Positions 4,676 to 63,461 of a stretch of 64,000 nucleotides of DNA are shown in pieces. Made by a program: the position numbers and the translations under genes. Position 1 is the stretch's first letter. The number at the start of each line of letters is the position of its first letter. This DNA comes from Streptomyces sp. CBMA291. GTDB lineage: Bacteria > Actinomycetota > Actinomycetes > Streptomycetales > Streptomycetaceae. The notes beneath the pieces are model-generated. The model did not search any database. It was not told the DNA's origin and saw only the letters and a program-made list of their open reading frames with translations. The stretch spans positions 62,001 through 126,000 of the forward strand of contig NZ_MSJP01000031.1 of assembly GCF_014596525.1 (NCBI RefSeq), read 5' to 3'.

Positions 4676-5597
4676 CGGCCGCCCTCTCCTCGGTCGTGAT
4701 CTCGGTCGTGGTCTCGGATGCGCCCTTGGACGTGGTTTCGGGGGTGTCCTTGGACGTGGTCTCGGGCGGGGTCCCGGGCGTGGTTTCGGGGGTGTCCTTG
4801 GACGTGGTCCCGGGCGTGCCCTCGGGCGGGGTCCCGGGCGTGATCTCAGGTGTGTCCTCGGGCGTGGTCTCGGGCCTGGTCCCGGTCGTGGTGATCCGCA
4901 GGGCGTCCTCGGGTGCCTCGCTGCACACGGCGAGGACGGTGGTGCCGGCGGCGGCCACCGAGCGCAGAACTTCCCAGGCCGTGGCCCGGTCGGCGTCCGA
5001 GAGCTTCAGGTCCGTGTCGTCGACGGCGAGCAGCCGGGGCCGGCCGATCAGGGCCAGGGCGAGCGAGAGCCGCAGCGCTTCGAGCCGCTCCAGATCCCGT
5101 ACGCGGGTCCGCTCGCCCTTCGGCAACGCGGCCGGGTCGAGCCCGACGGCGGTCAGCGCCTCCTCGATCCGCTCCCTGGAGGTCGCGGCCCGTTCGCCGG
5201 GGCGGCCCAGCAGGGCCCGGAGGGAGCCGTCGTACCGGCGCTGGAGCAGGGCCCGCTCGCGCAGGTGCTCGGCGACGCTGAAGGCGGGATCGAGTTCGCT
5301 GACGCCGGGGACCTGCCCGAGCGCGCTGATCCGGCGCACCGCCGCCATCTTCCGGGGCAGCGGCAGACCACCGACCTCGGCGGTGCCCTCCCTGGCCTTC
5401 ATCCGGCCGGTGAGCGCGAGCAGCAGACAGGTGCGGCCCGAGCCGGAGGGCCCCTCGATCGCCACCAGCGTCCCGGGAGCGGCCCGGAAGGACACCCCCC
5501 GGAACGCCCAGCCACGCGGTCCCTTCAGGCCGAAGCCGTCCGCGACGACGGCGGCGCCGTGCGGCTCCTCCCCGGCCTCCGTACGTGGGGACCCCAT
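4647..5597 (-). CDS. Degenerate ABC-type ATPase with Thr/Pro/Glu-rich repeat tail
   Basis: A 316-residue protein. The first 215 or so residues have ABC ATPase organisation. However, the Walker A motif is GPSGSGRT, with Arg in place of the invariant Lys; the Walker B end reads LLAVDDTD, with Asp rather than Glu; and no LSGGQ signature is visible (the region reads RDLERLEALRLSLALAL). The last 80 or so residues are tandem TPETTPGTPPE-like repeats encoded by a minisatellite. ATG 5597 (MGSPRTEAG) has a GGTGGA site; the longer upstream frame enters the operator region and is rejected. It is the first gene of the YhgE/TetR operon. It may be a regulatory or weak ATPase rather than a classical transporter motor. 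Confidence 0.8.
   Translation of the reverse strand: MGSPRTEAGEEPHGAAVVADGFGLKGPRGWAFRGVSFRAAPGTLVAIEGPSGSGRTCLLLALTGRMKAREGTAEVGGLPLPRKMAAVRRISALGQVPGVSELDPAFSVAEHLRERALLQRRYDGSLRALLGRPGERAATSRERIEEALTAVGLDPAALPKGERTRVRDLERLEALRLSLALALIGRPRLLAVDDTDLKLSDADRATAWEVLRSVAAAGTTVLAVCSEAPEDALRITTTGTRPETTPEDTPEITPGTPPEGTPGTTSKDTPETTPGTPPETTSKDTPETTSKGASETTTEITTEERAAGAFVETGRA
4700..4890. repeat. Coding minisatellite in the ATPase C-terminus
   Basis: On the plus strand the units are variants of GGACGTGGTCTCGGGC and GGCGTGGTTTCGGGGGTGTC, repeated about 10 times with few changes. In the minus-strand reading frame they encode Thr/Pro/Glu/Lys-Asp repeats. They account for the unusual C-terminal tail and are likely to vary in copy number between strains. 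Confidence 0.8.
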
Positions 5598-35811: not shown

Positions 35812-36612
35812 ATGGTGGCGAAGAAGACGGCGACGCGGCACTCCCCGGCCGGGGAGACCGCCGCCGGGACGGACGCGGCCCGGACGCCGGACGCCGACAA
35901 GGCCCCCGCGAAGAAGGCTCCGGCCGAGGCTCCCGCGAAGAAGGCCGCCGCCGGGAAGGCCCCTGCGAAGAAGGCCCCGGCCGAGGCTCCCGCGAAGAAG
36001 GCCGCCGCCAGGAAGACGGCTGCCAGGAAGACCCCGGCGAGGAAGACCGCCGCAGGGGAGACCGCGGCGAAGGAGGCCCCCGCGAAGAGGGCGGCGGCCG
36101 GGAAGACCCCCGCGAAGAAGACCGCGCCCGGGGCGAGGAAGCAGACGGGAGCCAGGACGGTGGCAGCGCAGAGGACCGCGCCCGGGGAGACGGCCGGGGT
36201 GCCCGCGGCCGGGTCCTGGGAGCTGGCGGTACGCCCCGGCGAGGAGCCGTGGACCCCGGCGGAGGTCGCCGAGGCCCGCACCGGGCTCCAGGCGGAGGTA
36301 CTGCGGCTGCGCAGCGAGCTGGCCCACTCGCGGGAGGAGCTGACCGGTCTGATGCGGGACTCCGGCGACGGCGCGGGCGACGACCAGGCCGACACCGGCA
36401 CCAAGAACATCACCCGGGAGCACGAGCTGTCCCTCGCCGCCAACGCGCGGGAGATGCTGGAGCAGACCGAGCACGCCCTGGAACGGCTCGACGCGGGCAC
36501 GTACGGCCTGTGCGAGGTGTGCGGGAAGCCGATCGGCAAGGCGCGGATGCAGGCCTTCCCCCGGGCCACGCTCTGCGTCGAGGACAAGCAGCGTCAGGAG
36601 CGGCGCGGCTGA
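35812..36612 (+). CDS. DksA/TraR-type protein with histone-like Lys/Ala/Pro repeat N-terminus
   Basis: A 266-residue protein. Residues 1-125 are [17 protein letters not shown]-type repeats resembling H1-like DNA-binding tails. Residues 140-266 form a DksA-like coiled coil ([40 protein letters not shown]) and a zinc-finger region ([16 protein letters not shown]...TLCVEDK). The fourth finger position is Asp where Cys is expected, so zinc binding is CxxC-C-D or impaired. It may act at RNA polymerase or on DNA. ATG 35812 is used. It is divergent from ileS; the 250 bp between its start and the T-box promoter show nothing else definite. lspA follows 80 bases later. Confidence 0.85.
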
Positions 36613-48666: not shown

Positions 48667-49968
48667 GTGGACCGCTGCGTCGTTCTGGTGGACGCCGGCT
48701 ACCTGCTGGGTGCCGCTGCCAGCCTTCTCGCCGGGGAACCGGCCCGCTCCCGGATCACCGTCGACCACGCCGGGCTCATCCAGCAGCTGCGCCACCGCGC
48801 CGAGGCCGAGACGGCCCTGCCCCTGCTGCGGATCTACTGGTTCGACGGCGCCCCCGACCGGGTCCCCCAGCCGGAGCACCGCAGACTCCGGGTCATGCCC
48901 CGGGTCACCGTCCGGCTCGGCGCCCTCACCCGAAGCGAGGGACGCTGGGCCCAGAAGGGCGTCGACGCGGCCATGCACGCCGAACTCACCGAGCTGGCGA
49001 GGAACCGCGCCTGCTCCGACATCGTGCTCGTCACCGGCGACGGCGATCTGCTCCCCGGCCTCATGTCGGCCAAGGAACACGGCGTCGCCGTGCACCTCTG
49101 GGCCGTCCAGGCGGCCGACGGCGACTACAACCAGTCCGAGGACCTCGTCGCCGAGGCCGACGAACGACGGGTCCTCGACCGCGCCTGGATCACCCGAGCC
49201 ATCCGCGCCAAGGACCTCAACGGCATCTGCTCCCCGTCGCCCGCGCCCCGCCCCGAGATCGCCGCCATCCTCTCGGCGCCCCTGCCGGAGGCGGCCCTCG
49301 CCGCCTCCGGCGAACGGGCCGGGCAGTCCCCGCCGCCCCCCTCCGAGACCACGCCCGCCCCCGCCGCCACCCCCGACGCCACCGCCGGACTCGCCCACGA
49401 GGACGCGCACCCGCTCACCCCCGGCGTCCCCGCCCCCGCCACCGGCAAGGGCGTCCCCACCCCCAAGGACCTGGCGGGGCTGCGCGGCCCGGGAACCACC
49501 GGCCCCGCCACCGCGCCCCCGGGCAACAGCGCGCTCCGCTGGTCCTCCGACCGGGGCTGGGTCGAGCGCCCGGCCCCCGCCCTCGGCGAACCGCCCGAGA
49601 CCGCCTCCCTGCCCACCCTCGCCACCCTCACCAGCGCCGAGCAGCGCTGGGCCGACCGCGAGGAGGACATCACCACCGTCGGCGGCGACCCCTTCGAGGT
49701 CGGCCAGGTGTTCGCCCGCCGATGGATGGAACGCCTCCACGAACAGAGCCACGTCCAGAACCTCTCCGTCCTCTACCCCCGCATCCCGCACCGCATCGAC
49801 GGCGAACTCCTCCGCTACGCGGCCCGGTTCGGCCTGCTCGCCCACAAGGACGACCAGATCGACGAACACGACCGGTACGCGATCCGGGCGGGCTTCTGGC
49901 GCGAGATCGACGTCCGGGCCGCCGCCGAACCCGCCCCCGCGCCCGGCACCGGCCCGACGACCCCGTAG
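48667..49968 (+). CDS. NYN domain (PIN-like) putative RNase
   Basis: A 433-residue protein. The N-terminal NYN domain has acidic residues in CVVLVDAGYLLGAAA, KGVDAAMHAELTELA and IVLVTGDGDLLPGL, the expected metal-binding set of PIN/NYN nucleases. A Pro/Ala-rich linker of about 120 residues separates it from a C-terminal domain (WADREEDITTVGGDPFEVGQ, LYPRIPHRIDGELLRYAARF, AIRAGFWREI). GTG 48667 is preceded by AGAGGGTGG; a GTG at 48658 is less likely. The likely role is RNA cleavage; the target is unknown. Confidence 0.85.
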   Translation: MDRCVVLVDAGYLLGAAASLLAGEPARSRITVDHAGLIQQLRHRAEAETALPLLRIYWFDGAPDRVPQPEHRRLRVMPRVTVRLGALTRSEGRWAQKGVDAAMHAELTELARNRACSDIVLVTGDGDLLPGLMSAKEHGVAVHLWAVQAADGDYNQSEDLVAEADERRVLDRAWITRAIRAKDLNGICSPSPAPRPEIAAILSAPLPEAALAASGERAGQSPPPPSETTPAPAATPDATAGLAHEDAHPLTPGVPAPATGKGVPTPKDLAGLRGPGTTGPATAPPGNSALRWSSDRGWVERPAPALGEPPETASLPTLATLTSAEQRWADREEDITTVGGDPFEVGQVFARRWMERLHEQSHVQNLSVLYPRIPHRIDGELLRYAARFGLLAHKDDQIDEHDRYAIRAGFWREIDVRAAAEPAPAPGTGPTTP

Positions 49969-49971
49969 GCT
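49966..49971 (+). promoter_or_regulatory. -10 box (TAGGCT) overlapping the NYN stop codon
   Basis: TAGGCT begins at the TAG stop of the NYN gene and ends 8 bases before GTG 49980 of the ABC ATPase, with no ribosome-binding site between. This fits a leaderless start. Confidence 0.4.
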
Positions 49972-49979
49972 CTTCCCCC

Positions 49980-50960
49980 GTGAGTACGGTGTGCGCGGTG
50001 CGGGAACTGGTCAAGACGTACCCCGCCACGCGCGGCGGGCGCGGTACGCCCGCGACCCCCGAGGTGCGGGCCACCGACGGGATCGACCTCGATGTGCGCG
50101 GCGGCGAGATCTTCGGCCTGCTCGGCCCCAACGGGGCGGGCAAGTCCACCCTCGTACGCCAGCTCACCGGACTGATGCGCCCCGACTCCGGAACCGTCCG
50201 GGTCCTCGGCCACGACCTGGTGCGCCACCCCGAGCGGGCCGCCCGGCTCCTCGCCTACCTCGGCCAGGAGTCCACCGCCCTCGACGAGCTGACCGTCTCC
50301 CTCGCCGCCGAGACCACCGCACGGCTCCGGGGCCTGACCGCCCCCGAGGCCCGCGCCGAGCGTGACGCCGTCCTCGACGAGCTGGGCCTCGGCCCCCTCG
50401 CCTCCCGGCCCCTCAAGAAGCTCTCCGGCGGACAGCGCAGGCTCGCCTGCTTCGCCACCACCCTCGTCGGACGCCGCTCCCTGCTCGTCCTCGACGAGCC
50501 CACCACCGGCATGGACCCCGTCGCCCGCCGCGCCGTCTGGGCCGCCGTCGACCGGCGCCGCGCCGAACAGGGCACCACCGTGCTCCTCGTCACCCACAAC
50601 GTCATCGAGGCCGAGACCGTCCTCGACCGCGTCGCCGTCCTCGACCGGGGCCGGGTCATCGCCTGCGACACGCCCACCGGACTCAAGGAACGCGTCGCGG
50701 GGGAGGTCCGCGTCGAACTGCTCTGGCGCGAGTCGGCCCCCCTCCACCTGCCCGAGATCGCCGCGCTGAGCGGCCTCGCCCAGGAGACCGGCCGCCGCTG
50801 GGCCCTCCGGCTCGCCCCCGACCAGGCACGCGCCGCCGTCGCCACCGTCACCGGCGGCGCCGCCTTCGCCGCCCTCGACGACTTCACCCTGGCCACCCCC
50901 AGCCTGGAGGACGTCTACCTGGCCCTCGGCGGCGCCACGGAGGGACTGGTGAAGGCGTGA
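49980..50960 (+). CDS. ABC transporter ATP-binding protein
   Basis: A 326-residue ATPase with complete motifs: Walker A GPNGAGKST (about residue 48), Q-loop YLGQES, signature LSGGQRR, Walker B LLVLDEPTTGMD and H-loop LVTHN. It is of the drug/antibiotic exporter (DrrA-like) type. GTG 49980 follows a -10-like box, so a leaderless mRNA is likely. Its permease (51316-52143) comes after a repetitive 355-bp spacer whose frame is joined by 4-base overlaps at both ends. The substrate is unknown. Confidence 0.92.
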   Translation: MSTVCAVRELVKTYPATRGGRGTPATPEVRATDGIDLDVRGGEIFGLLGPNGAGKSTLVRQLTGLMRPDSGTVRVLGHDLVRHPERAARLLAYLGQESTALDELTVSLAAETTARLRGLTAPEARAERDAVLDELGLGPLASRPLKKLSGGQRRLACFATTLVGRRSLLVLDEPTTGMDPVARRAVWAAVDRRRAEQGTTVLLVTHNVIEAETVLDRVAVLDRGRVIACDTPTGLKERVAGEVRVELLWRESAPLHLPEIAALSGLAQETGRRWALRLAPDQARAAVATVTGGAAFAALDDFTLATPSLEDVYLALGGATEGLVKA

Positions 50961-51315
50961 CCGGAACCACACCCGCACCCGCACGGATCTCCGCACCCTC
51001 CGTACGAGGGGCCATGCCCGCACCCGCGGGGACCTCCGTGTCCGTGCCGGGGACAGCGTCCGCGCCCGCACGGGCTTCCACACTGGTACGAGGGACCACG
51101 CCCGTACGAGCCTCCGCGCCTTCCGTACGAGGGGCCGCGCCCGCAGCCGCACGAGCCTCCGCCTCCGTACGAGGGGCCACGCCCGCACCCGCGCGGATCT
51201 CCGCCTCCGGGCGAGGGCCCGTGCCCGCGCCCGTACGAGTGGGCTCGCTCGCGTACGATCCGGGGGCCGGCTCCGTACCCCCGCCCGAGCCCGTGACCCC
51301 CAGGAGCTGTCCGCA
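50961..51315 (+). repeat. Repetitive spacer inside the ABC operon, with an open frame coupled to both genes
   Basis: The 355-bp interval is filled with copies of TCCGTACGAGGGGCCACGCC and CCGCACCCGCGCGGATCTCC variants. A frame at 50957-51319 (120 codons) starts by a GTGA overlap with the ATPase stop and ends by a GTGA overlap with the permease start. It encodes Ala/Pro/Arg/Ser/Val repeats (APARISA, SVRGA). It may be translated only as a coupling bridge, or not at all. There is no recognisable domain. Confidence 0.7.
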
Positions 51316-52143
51316 GTGAGCACCGTGCCCGCCGAGGTCCTGCCGACCGGCGCGCCCGCCGTCCGGACCCGCGACGACGAGGACACCGCCGCGCCCCTCG
51401 CCCCCCGCGCCCGGCTGCTGCCGGCCCTGGCCGCCGTCTACCGGGCGCAGCTCTCCCGCGCCCGGGTCGCCCGCATCCCGCTGCTCTTCGTCGCCACCTT
51501 CCAGTCCGTCGGGATCATGATCCTGATGCGCGGGGTGGTCGACGGCGGCTCCGAGGCGCGGGCCGTCGTGGCCGGATCCACCGTCCTCGTCGTCGCCTTC
51601 GTCGCGCTCAACCTGCTCGCCCAGTACTTCGGGCAGCTACGGGCCACCGGCGGGCTCGACCACTACGCCACCCTGCCCGTGCCGCCCGCCGCCGTCGTGC
51701 TCGGCGCCGCCGGGGCGTACGCCTCCTTCACCGTGCCCGGCACCGCCGTCACCGCCGTCGCCGGATCCGTCCTCTTCGGGCTGCCGCTCGGCAACCTGTG
51801 GATCCTCGCCGCCGTCGTCCCGCTCTCCGGAGCGGCCCTCGCCGGTCTCGGCGCGGCCCTCGGCCTCCTCGCTCCCCGTCAGGAACTGGCCACCCTCCTC
51901 GGCCAGCTCGGCATGTCGGCGGCGCTGCTCCTCGGCGTCCTCCCGGCCGAACGGATGCCGGAGCCGATCGGCTGGGCCCGGGACCTGCTGCCCTCGACGT
52001 ACGGCGTGGAAGCCCTCGCCCGCACCTTCGACGCGCGCCCCGACTGGGCCGTCGTCGCCCTCGACCTCGGGGTCTGCGCCGTGGTCGGCGCGGTCTCCCT
52101 CGCGGTCGCCACCTGGGCGTACCGGCGGGCCGCCGTCCGCTGA
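51316..52143 (+). CDS. ABC-2 type transporter permease
   Basis: A 275-residue membrane protein with about six helices (including IPLLFVATFQSVGIMILMRG, STVLVVAFVALNLLAQYFGQ and LWILAAVVPLSGAALAGLGA), matching ABC-2 exporters of the DrrB type. The motif DLLPSTYGVEALARTFDARP near the end is typical. GTG 51316 overlaps the end of the repetitive frame by 4 bases. It pairs with the ATPase at 49980-50960. Confidence 0.9.
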   Translation: MSTVPAEVLPTGAPAVRTRDDEDTAAPLAPRARLLPALAAVYRAQLSRARVARIPLLFVATFQSVGIMILMRGVVDGGSEARAVVAGSTVLVVAFVALNLLAQYFGQLRATGGLDHYATLPVPPAAVVLGAAGAYASFTVPGTAVTAVAGSVLFGLPLGNLWILAAVVPLSGAALAGLGAALGLLAPRQELATLLGQLGMSAALLLGVLPAERMPEPIGWARDLLPSTYGVEALARTFDARPDWAVVALDLGVCAVVGAVSLAVATWAYRRAAVR

Positions 52144-52177
52144 GGCGGGCCGCGGGGACACCTGGCACGATGGCGGG

Positions 52178-52804
52178 GTGACCGCACCCCTTACGCCGCC
52201 TCACCAGCCCTCGTCGCACGATCCCGGCTGGCCCCCGCCGCCTCCGCCGGTGTCCGGTCCCGCCGGGGACCCGATCACGGCAGCCGAGGTGCTCCAGGGG
52301 GTCCTGGTGGCCCTGGTGTCGACGATCGCGGGCGCGGTGCTCGGCGTACTGTGGCTGAATCTCGCCCCGCGCGTGCTGCTCGTCTCCGACGGCAAGGGCG
52401 TCTACCTCCGCGACTCCGAGGGCGAGGCGGCCATCGGCTCCGACGGCACGTTCGTCCTCCTCGCCCTGGCCTTCGGGGCCCTCGCCGCGCTCGTCGTCTT
52501 CCTGCTCAAGCGCCGGGGCGGCATCCCGCTGGTGCTGGGGCTCGCCCTCGGCGGCGGACTCGGCTCCCTGCTCGCCTGGGGCCTCGGCGTCTACTTCGGC
52601 CCCACCCGGGACGTGGTCGCCCACGCCAAGGCGGTCGGCCCCGAAGTCGTCTTCGACGCGCCGCTGGAACTGCACCTGGGGGCCGCCGCGATGCTGGCCT
52701 GGCCGCTCGCCGCGATGGCCGTGCACCTGGTGCTCACGGGTCTCCTCGGCCCGCGCGACCCGGAACCGGAACCCTGGGGCGCGCCGCAGCCGCACGAGAG
52801 CTGA
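52178..52804 (+). CDS. DUF2567-type membrane protein
   Basis: A 208-residue protein with a Pro-rich N-terminus (PPHQPSSHDPGWPPPPPP) and four hydrophobic helices, the second preceded by a soluble loop (LLVSDGKGVYLRDSEGEAAI). It resembles the actinobacterial DUF2567 family, whose role is unknown. GTG 52178 is 34 bases after the permease stop, with a CACGAT box 6 bases upstream. It may be co-transcribed with the ABC genes. Confidence 0.75.
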   Translation: MTAPLTPPHQPSSHDPGWPPPPPPVSGPAGDPITAAEVLQGVLVALVSTIAGAVLGVLWLNLAPRVLLVSDGKGVYLRDSEGEAAIGSDGTFVLLALAFGALAALVVFLLKRRGGIPLVLGLALGGGLGSLLAWGLGVYFGPTRDVVAHAKAVGPEVVFDAPLELHLGAAAMLAWPLAAMAVHLVLTGLLGPRDPEPEPWGAPQPHES

Positions 52805-55383: not shown

Positions 55384-55646
55384 TCACCACACGCCCACAG
55401 GAGCCCCCGAGCACCCCCACCGGTCCGCCCGGCTCCACCCCCGCCGGTCCACCCGCTGCACCCGCCGGTCCGCCCGGCCCGCTCCCTCCGGTGGCCCCCC
55501 CTCGCGCTCCCGCCGGGTCCGCCCGGCCCACCCCCTCCGGTGGCCACCCCGAGTGCCCCGCCGGTCCGCCCGGCTCATCCGGCTCACCCGGCCAACCCCG
55601 GCTCGCCCCGGCCAACCCCGGCTCACCCCCGCCGAAGCAGCCCCCC
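55384..55646. repeat. Pro-codon-rich minisatellite spacer
   Basis: This GC-rich stretch, part of the 363-bp spacer 55284-55646, contains repeated CCGGTCCGCCCGGCTC-like units, two copies of CCCTCCGGTGGCC and two near-identical 20-base units CGGCCAACCCCGGCTCGCCC (55589-55628). I see no gene. It separates two minus-strand genes. Confidence 0.7.
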
Positions 55647-61305: not shown

Positions 61306-62027
61306 GCACTCTCGAACTCCTCCCCGCCGTGGACGTCCGCGACGGTCAGGCCGTCCGCCTCGTGCACGGCGAGTCCGGCACCGAGACCTCCTACGGCTCC
61401 CCGCTCGAAGCGGCGCTCGCCTGGCAGCGCTCCGGCGCCGAGTGGCTGCACCTCGTCGACCTCGACGCCGCCTTCGGCACCGGCGACAACCGGGACCTCA
61501 TCGCCGAGGTCGCCCGCGCCATGGACATCAAGGTCGAACTCTCCGGCGGCATCCGCGACGACGCCTCCCTGGCCGCCGCCCTCGCCACCGGCTGCACCCG
61601 CGTCAACCTCGGCACCGCCGCCCTGGAGACCCCCGAGTGGGTCGCCAAGGTCATCGCCGAGTACGGCGACCGCATCGCCGTCGGCCTCGACGTCCGCGGC
61701 ACCACCCTGCGCGGCCGCGGCTGGACCCGCGACGGCGGCGACCTCTACGAGACCCTCGCCCGCCTCGACTCCGAGGGCTGCTCCCGCTACGTCGTCACCG
61801 ACATCGCCAAGGACGGCACCCTCCAGGGCCCCAACCTGGAACTCCTGAAGAACGTCTGCGCCGCCACCGACAAGCCCGTCGTCGCCTCCGGCGGCGTGTC
61901 CTCCCTGGACGACCTGCGGGCCCTGTCCGGCCTCGTCCCGCTCGGCGTCGAGGGCGCCATCGTCGGCAAGGCGCTCTACGCCAAGGCCTTCACCCTCGAA
62001 GAGGCGCTCGCGGCGGTGGCGTCGTGA
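61302..62027 (+). CDS. priA: Phosphoribosyl isomerase PriA (HisA/TrpF bifunctional type)
   Basis: A 241-residue TIM barrel opening [20 protein letters not shown], with [16 protein letters not shown], and [20 protein letters not shown] containing the Arg-rich loop of actinobacterial PriA. The catalytic acids are in PAVDVRDG and [10 protein letters not shown]. In Streptomyces this enzyme isomerises both ProFAR (histidine) and PRA (tryptophan) and replaces trpF. GTG 61302 overlaps hisH by 4 bases. Confidence 0.95.
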
Positions 62028-63174: not shown

Positions 63175-63461
63175 CGGCCGCCGCACGCACGGGCCGAGGG
63201 GGCTCCTCAGGGACCCCCTCGCCGTACGCGCGGACTCTCCGCATACGCGAGACTCGCCGTACGCGCGAAAGGGGCTCCGCGAAGGGGCCCCTTTTCCCGT
63301 ACCCGGGGGCGGCGGGTCCTCCCGGTGGGCGGGTCCGCCCAGGGCCCGGGTCCGCCCGTAGGCCAGGTCCGCCTGTACGTCGGGTCCGCCCGTAGGCCAG
63401 GTCCGCCCAGGCGCCGGGCCCACAGGGGGCAGGTCCTCCCAGGCGCCGGGTCCGACCGGGC
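63175..63461. repeat. Repetitive spacer after hisF
   Basis: This 287-bp gap holds GCCGTACGCGCG repeats (63221-63266), the terminator, and then about five CAGGTCCGCC/CGGGTCCGCC units (63330-63440), including two copies of CGGGTCCGCCCGTAGGCCAG. No gene is visible. Confidence 0.7.
63268..63295 (+). terminator. Terminator of the his operon
   Basis: AAAGGGGC (63268-63275) pairs with GCCCCTTT (63287-63294) around an 11-base loop, with TTTT at 63292-63295. It lies 94 bases past hisF. Confidence 0.65.

Follow-up and report, generated by a model that had tools for sequence, protein, structure and literature searches.

A repetitive frame between the ATPase and permease genes of a Streptomyces ABC exporter as a probable ribosome relay

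In Streptomyces sp. CBMA291, the ATPase gene of an ABC exporter and its permease gene are separated by repetitive DNA, through which a single open frame runs and overlaps both neighbors by four bases. Is this frame kept for its peptide, for the sake of its translation, or not kept at all? We address this question using the window (i.e., the whole stretch of 64,000 nucleotides that was analyzed, positions 62,001 to 126,000 of the forward strand of contig NZ_MSJP01000031.1) and the corresponding junction in related genomes. The features of the locus are the following:

49980..50960, + strand: ABC transporter ATPase, upstream cistron (open frame; Pfam ABC_tran, 3.3e-29)
50939..50944, + strand: GGAGGG within the ATPase 3' end, possible Shine-Dalgarno (SD) sequence of the relay start (12 nt spacing)
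50957..50960, + strand: GTGA, relay start codon overlapping the ATPase stop (read from the sequence)
50957..51319, + strand: relay frame of 120 codons, GTG start, TGA stop (list of open reading frames and comparison of loci)
50972..51239, + strand: degenerate minisatellite within the relay frame, unit of about 42 bp, a multiple of 3 (Tandem Repeats Finder)
51302..51306, + strand: AGGAG, SD-like site of the permease, 9 nt 5' of its GTG
51316..51319, + strand: GTGA, permease start overlapping the relay stop (read from the sequence)
51316..52143, + strand: ABC-2 type permease, downstream cistron (Pfam ABC2_membrane, 3.8e-12; ABC2_membrane_3, 8.3e-12)

The ATPase gene ends in AAG GCG TGA, and the interval between the two genes (50961-51315) measures 355 bp. 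The position that the earlier note had given for the frame, 50957-51319 with a GTGA overlap at each end, is exact, and both junctions thus show the closeness of stop and start (overlapping or at most about 10 nt apart) that characterizes termination-reinitiation pairs. Tandem Repeats Finder reports the array at 50972-51239 with a period of 42 (6.4 copies, score 169) and a second one at 50989-51217 with a period of 123 (score 258). The ABC_tran and ABC2_membrane domains give the gene pair the make-up of an ABC-2 exporter (ATPase plus ABC-2 permease), the products of which we take, from knowledge of the family, to form one physical complex. DrrA is the best NCBIfam model for the ATPase (7.9e-66), but because its 222 bits fall short of the 312-bit cut-off of that model, we withhold the name. 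Other minisatellite-like arrays were found in the window by the same program at 55405-55574, 63307-63460, 4689-4892, and 35892-36126.

By itself, an open frame in GC-rich DNA is weak evidence. The permease frame is likewise without stops through the spacer of the window, and minus-strand frames of 98 and 523 aa overlap it. Because GC-rich DNA yields long chance frames, the significance of this one rests on the comparison with relatives.

For that comparison, a search of the genus gave an ATPase match in 284 of 295 genomes, 130 of which (our own included) supplied intervals. Named genomes contributed 80 loci, three of which carry a title other than Streptomyces, and a family-level permease search that matched 98 of 101 genomes gave 30, followed by 20 further matches. 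The resulting 260 loci reduce to 241 distinct ones; without the two whose interval contains N, 239 remain, of which 207 count as Streptomyces and 32 belong to 14 further genera of the Streptomycetaceae (by the genus labels of the family-level search). Each chain was traced from the start codon overlapping the ATPase stop through that frame to its end and on to an overlapping start, and any start codon in the permease frame counts as arrival.

An unbroken chain of 4-base stop/start overlaps leads from the ATPase stop to the permease in 235 of the 239 loci: directly in 78, via one relay frame in 155, and via two relays in series in two (L164 and L183), where every junction is again a 4-base overlap. 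Every one of the 239 loci has a start-like codon that overlaps the ATPase stop (GTG in 157, ATG in 62, TTG in 18, and CTG in 2). The final overlap measures four bases in each of the 157 relay chains, and in the 155 single-relay loci it reads GTGA (144), ATGA (6), or TTGA (5). L040 and L157, both connected, carry CTG at the ATPase stop, with an in-frame ATG 5 nt beyond that stop. In L183, the second junction derives from a duplicated copy of the ATPase end, as is visible in the sequence. The true permease start is uncertain in 33 of the 78 direct loci because the permease frame contains another xTGA start at most 200 nt downstream. All 32 loci from the other genera are connected, 22 directly and 10 (in four genera) via relays.

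The four remaining loci each fail in their own way. The relay stops 5 nt before the permease start in L099, a gap of 22 nt remains in L193, and the frame of L162 overlaps the permease start by 20 nt. In L172 the relay does reach GTGA, yet the permease frame is disrupted in that draft genome, which may be a sequencing error.

What these chains span varies widely. Spacers measure from nothing to about 1 kb (L059) and contain differing repeats, and the single relays of Streptomyces range from 6 to 343 codons (median 32), with 6 of 145 reaching at least 100 codons; the longest occur in L059 (343 codons), L140 (247), and L048 (246). The spacer thus expands and contracts between species, as the earlier note had anticipated. 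The relays of L059 and L048 consist of tandem repeats whose units are multiples of three (66/132/264 bp in L059 and 27/54/81 bp in L048), and 155 of the 156 loci in relay phase are open as far as the permease start. A short interval without an open frame in relatives had been proposed as a sign against coupling. The interval is indeed often short or absent, so that the first half of this expectation is borne out in form, but such loci have either a permease frame that begins right at the overlap with the ATPase stop or a short bridging frame, and the coupling architecture is kept.

How much of this could arise by chance? The ATPase-permease junction is in relay phase in 156 loci, in frame in 79, and in neither phase in four, two of which are the double relays L164 and L183. 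Among the 160 spacer-bearing loci, 157 connect, against 76.1 +/- 6.0 (maximum 91, 100 runs) when spacers are shuffled and the phase is randomized, and 106.0 +/- 5.9 (maximum 120) in shuffles that keep the length. Because shuffled spacers connect in about half of the cases, one connected locus alone means little. Shared ancestry was handled by drawing 109 independent sister pairs on a 218-locus tree built from the flanking genes. Both members carry a spacer in 73 pairs, the lengths differ in 53 of these, and 49 of the 53 differences are multiples of three (p=2.5e-19 versus one third); with the two N-bearing loci included, the count is 48 of 52. A distance that is free of start choice, from the ATPase stop to a permease residue, differs by a multiple of three in 76 of 91 differing pairs. 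Eleven of the 109 pairs switch between the in-frame and relay phases, keeping coupling in both and standing outside the multiple-of-three count, and the third phase is involved in four.

The neighboring spacers do not follow this phase rule and are near uniform in phase. Before the ATPase, where the spacer is variable in length, the relay, in-frame, and neither phases number 36, 53, and 32 (n=121 of 221 loci with enough flank; this control retains a few odd pairings, with gaps between -984 and 2049). Behind the permease, 146 of 207 loci share a single spacer length of 34 bp, and an apparent excess of relay phase between the permease and its downstream gene (159 of 215) was dismissed as an artifact of this fixed length; among the 61 spacers of other lengths, the counts are 13, 26, and 22, with relay phase the rarest. 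In this region (52144-52180 of the window), a conserved TGGCACGATGG-like motif lies directly 5' of the GTG of the next gene and may be the -10 element of a leaderless promoter.

A habit of the whole genome was considered as well. Spaced co-directional gene pairs (n=305) were collected with simple-script gene calls from about 800 kb of our own and a second genome. Over all gaps, their phases do not depart significantly from uniform, whether a start lies at the upstream stop (29/30/21 for relay, in-frame, and neither, p=0.19) or not (81/80/64, p=0.14), and such a habit was rejected as the explanation. At gaps below 100 bp, on the other hand, the neither phase is low both with a start at the stop (5 of 39, p=0.006) and without one (20 of 88, p=0.04). 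The contrast with other genes is therefore one of degree, and the near-absence of the third phase at the ATPase-permease junction (4 of 239) is not general, while milder versions may occur elsewhere. In 20 of the 80 control pairs with a start at the stop, the downstream frame is open back to that start, probably owing to start codons called too late by the script.

The claim of the earlier note that translation of the repeat preserves the coupling of the two genes is thereby strongly supported on comparative grounds: the chain is complete in 235 of 239 loci, spacer lengths differ by multiples of three in 49 of 53 cases, and the neighboring spacers show no such rule. Its interpretation stands in this part and in the expansion and contraction of the spacer. 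What persists at this junction is phase, not sequence.

We consider it highly probable that the 120-codon frame serves as a ribosome relay, indifferent to sequence, by which the ATPase and the permease remain translationally coupled. On reaching the end of the ATPase, ribosomes would start anew at the GTG that overlaps its stop and read through the repetitive spacer. Terminating at the TGA that overlaps the permease start, they would initiate once more, now on the permease, and the relay peptide would be a by-product. We infer that the frame is translated and that each handover is a termination-reinitiation event, for which balanced supply of the two subunits would be the selected benefit. A direct 4-base overlap, which would couple the two subunits by itself, is the probable ancestral state because it is the commonest one in the other genera (22 of 32), and relays would have been gained repeatedly. 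After a gain of DNA or a frame shift between the genes, the variants that last would be those that are open and in a phase ending at the start overlap.

In published work on coupled genes, a gap of about 20 nt nearly abolished reinitiation in six tested pairs (Escherichia coli and Haloferax volcanii), and short (4-base) overlaps are enriched among complex subunits (PMC10666635). If so small a gap has this effect, coupling across a longer spacer should require its translation as far as a start overlap, which is the arrangement observed here. Reports on distance disagree, as a section of a review cites reporters in which coupling is undiminished from -4 to +25 nt (PMC12548453).

Initiation signals accompany both ends of the relay. 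SD-like matches of at least 4 nt occur within the 15 nt before the start codon at the ATPase stop in 149 of 155 relay loci and before the permease start in 152 of 155, both as raw counts. SD help at each handover is possible, and so is independent initiation of the permease, since an SD-like site precedes it in 152 of the 155 relay loci.

The alternatives to a relay can be ranked by how well they survive these data. The best placed, although very unlikely, is that translation of the spacer shields transcription from Rho before the permease (anti-polarity) and does not serve to deliver ribosomes. Long C-rich untranslated stretches are typical Rho targets, and spacers here extend to about 1 kb (L059). 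However, the phase rule also applies to spacers of 6-40 codons, which are probably too short to need protection, and a phase in which the frame overruns the permease start would shield just as effectively but is almost never seen (4 of 239). Moreover, neither of the two neighboring spacers stays in frame. Long spacers could be under additional pressure from Rho, but the exact phase of short ones would be left unexplained.

Marginally less likely is that ribosomes on the spacer unfold a hairpin in which the ribosome-binding site of the permease is buried. A stem is indeed predicted in the window over the permease start and part of its SD sequence, but the fold is no stronger than that of shuffled sequences (z 0.43). 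For a random sample of 45 relay loci with at least 20 codons (6 shuffles each), the openness of the initiation region is 0.452 versus 0.455 with shuffled upstream sequence (p=0.85). An exact 4-base ending would also be unnecessary for unfolding. A structured RNA was sought in Rfam over 49900-52300, with no match.

A shade less probable again is that the spacer frame encodes a functional small protein, such as a third subunit or a regulator of the exporter. It has an open frame with a start overlap and an SD-like site, and relays of at least 20 codons show a modest codon-position bias (GC1-3 of 0.647/0.702/0.796). The composition of our own copy is not coding-like, however (0.739/0.831/0.737, against 0.786/0.537/0.945 for the permeases of relay loci). 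The frames range from 6 to 343 codons with sequences that differ among loci, and 78 of the 239 loci have no separate frame at all. Our own relay peptide resembles others only weakly and in a repeat-like manner (best E 1.7e-6, 32% identity, L140), and the 120-aa frame has no match in Pfam (E up to 0.001) or NCBIfam.

Twenty pairs of relays, equal in length and 70-99% identical, have 68, 79, and 63 substitutions at codon positions 1, 2, and 3, while the final 100 codons of their ATPases have 31, 35, and 277; among the changed relay codons, 126 are nonsynonymous and 28 synonymous. Purifying selection on the relay peptide was not found in these pairs, and we rejected a peptide function in view of the flat substitutions, the differing sequences, and the missing family match. 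What is conserved is the relay frame; its peptide is not. Among the 129 single relays of at least 20 codons, whose relay frame is open by definition, 102 also have an open permease frame and 30 an open third frame, where shuffles expect 62.2; that the permease frame is so often open is probably due to a scarcity of T at third positions of the relay.

Less probable than these three is that the spacer persists on other grounds, for instance as an internal permease promoter, and that its frame is incidental. The senX3-regX3 spacer, which bears a mycobacterial interspersed repetitive unit (MIRU), reportedly has promoter activity (in a passage of PMC4213456), but a promoter would impose no phase rule, and a simple consensus (sigma-70) scan of 50850-51450, which covers Streptomyces promoters poorly, found neither a promoter-like site nor a terminator. 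Coincidence, a GC-rich minisatellite open in one frame by chance, is scarcely credible: long chance frames do occur in such DNA, as the permease frame and the two minus-strand frames of the window illustrate, but the comparative results on chains, length differences, and neighboring spacers given above refute it.

The relay reading thus remains, and a bolder version of it is conceivable, one toward which we lean less than halfway. Here the ribosome path would be the sole target of selection: at this one gene pair, throughout the family, arbitrary DNA of 0 to about 1 kb would be tolerated between the subunit genes only if translated and ending on a start overlap, two-relay chains could rescue a wrong phase, and repeat-driven relay length would tune the ATPase:permease ratio by lineage, in line with the change in subunit ratio that the earlier note had suggested.

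The closest known system is that of the mycobacterial MIRUs (e.g., between senX3 and regX3; Supply et al. 1997), as described in passages of PMC12548453, PMC4473831, and PMC4213456. In those passages, a MIRU is a small frame in repeated intergenic DNA, oriented like its neighbors, with ends overlapping the contiguous frames; it is coupled at -4 nt spacing and is thought to leave gene expression nearly intact after insertion. A small frame in repeat DNA that overlaps both flanking frames is likewise found at 50957-51319. MIRUs, however, are described there as one genome-dispersed, apparently mobile repeat family. By description, the Streptomyces spacers are set apart from them, as they differ between species, seem locally grown, and belong to one gene pair; here phase persists through many independent length changes, relays occur in four other genera, and double relays exist. 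In our own genome, where 40 of 383 candidates were scored, the spacer repeat gives one full match, and the other five reported are pieces of 36-65 bp at 80-86%; a dispersed homologous repeat family was not found among these.

Termination-reinitiation at ATGA/GTGA shares with our locus the motif and the subunits of one complex, and its strong dependence on distance would make a spacer expensive to leave untranslated (PMC10666635; see also PMC6728339). There, two genes are joined directly, whereas here one or two frames without a conserved product are interposed, and two or three serial reinitiations are therefore implied. Leader peptides and bicistronic designs also have a short frame that hands ribosomes to the next gene (PMC4833913 and PMC12548453), but they precede a gene, whereas a relay links two structural genes and may comprise hundreds of repeat codons. 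Among the matches listed from the open-licence PMC literature, no earlier report of a frame-conserved spacer without conserved sequence was found; one may exist elsewhere.

If the relay reading is correct, selection on translation can be separated from selection on its product, as a frame is kept beyond the genus without a conserved peptide. The 155 single-relay spacers, with their 6-343 codons, form a natural series for testing the reach of ribosome handover. This series bears on repeated reinitiation within one operon and on the stoichiometry of exporter subunits as a reason for overlaps. It also carries a warning for the annotation of small proteins, since an open frame and a conserved position can belong to a peptide that is irrelevant.

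Short relays may also be present at other genes, as the shortage of the neither phase at gaps below 100 bp hints (L247-L286). In single genomes, a relay is found in 12 of the 80 control pairs with a start at the stop; our own locus has the longest, and the others measure 7-33 codons. Relay-like frames of 33 and 31 codons bridge other spaced gene pairs at positions of about 13983 and 47425 of the joined stretch of genome G209 (L267-L286).
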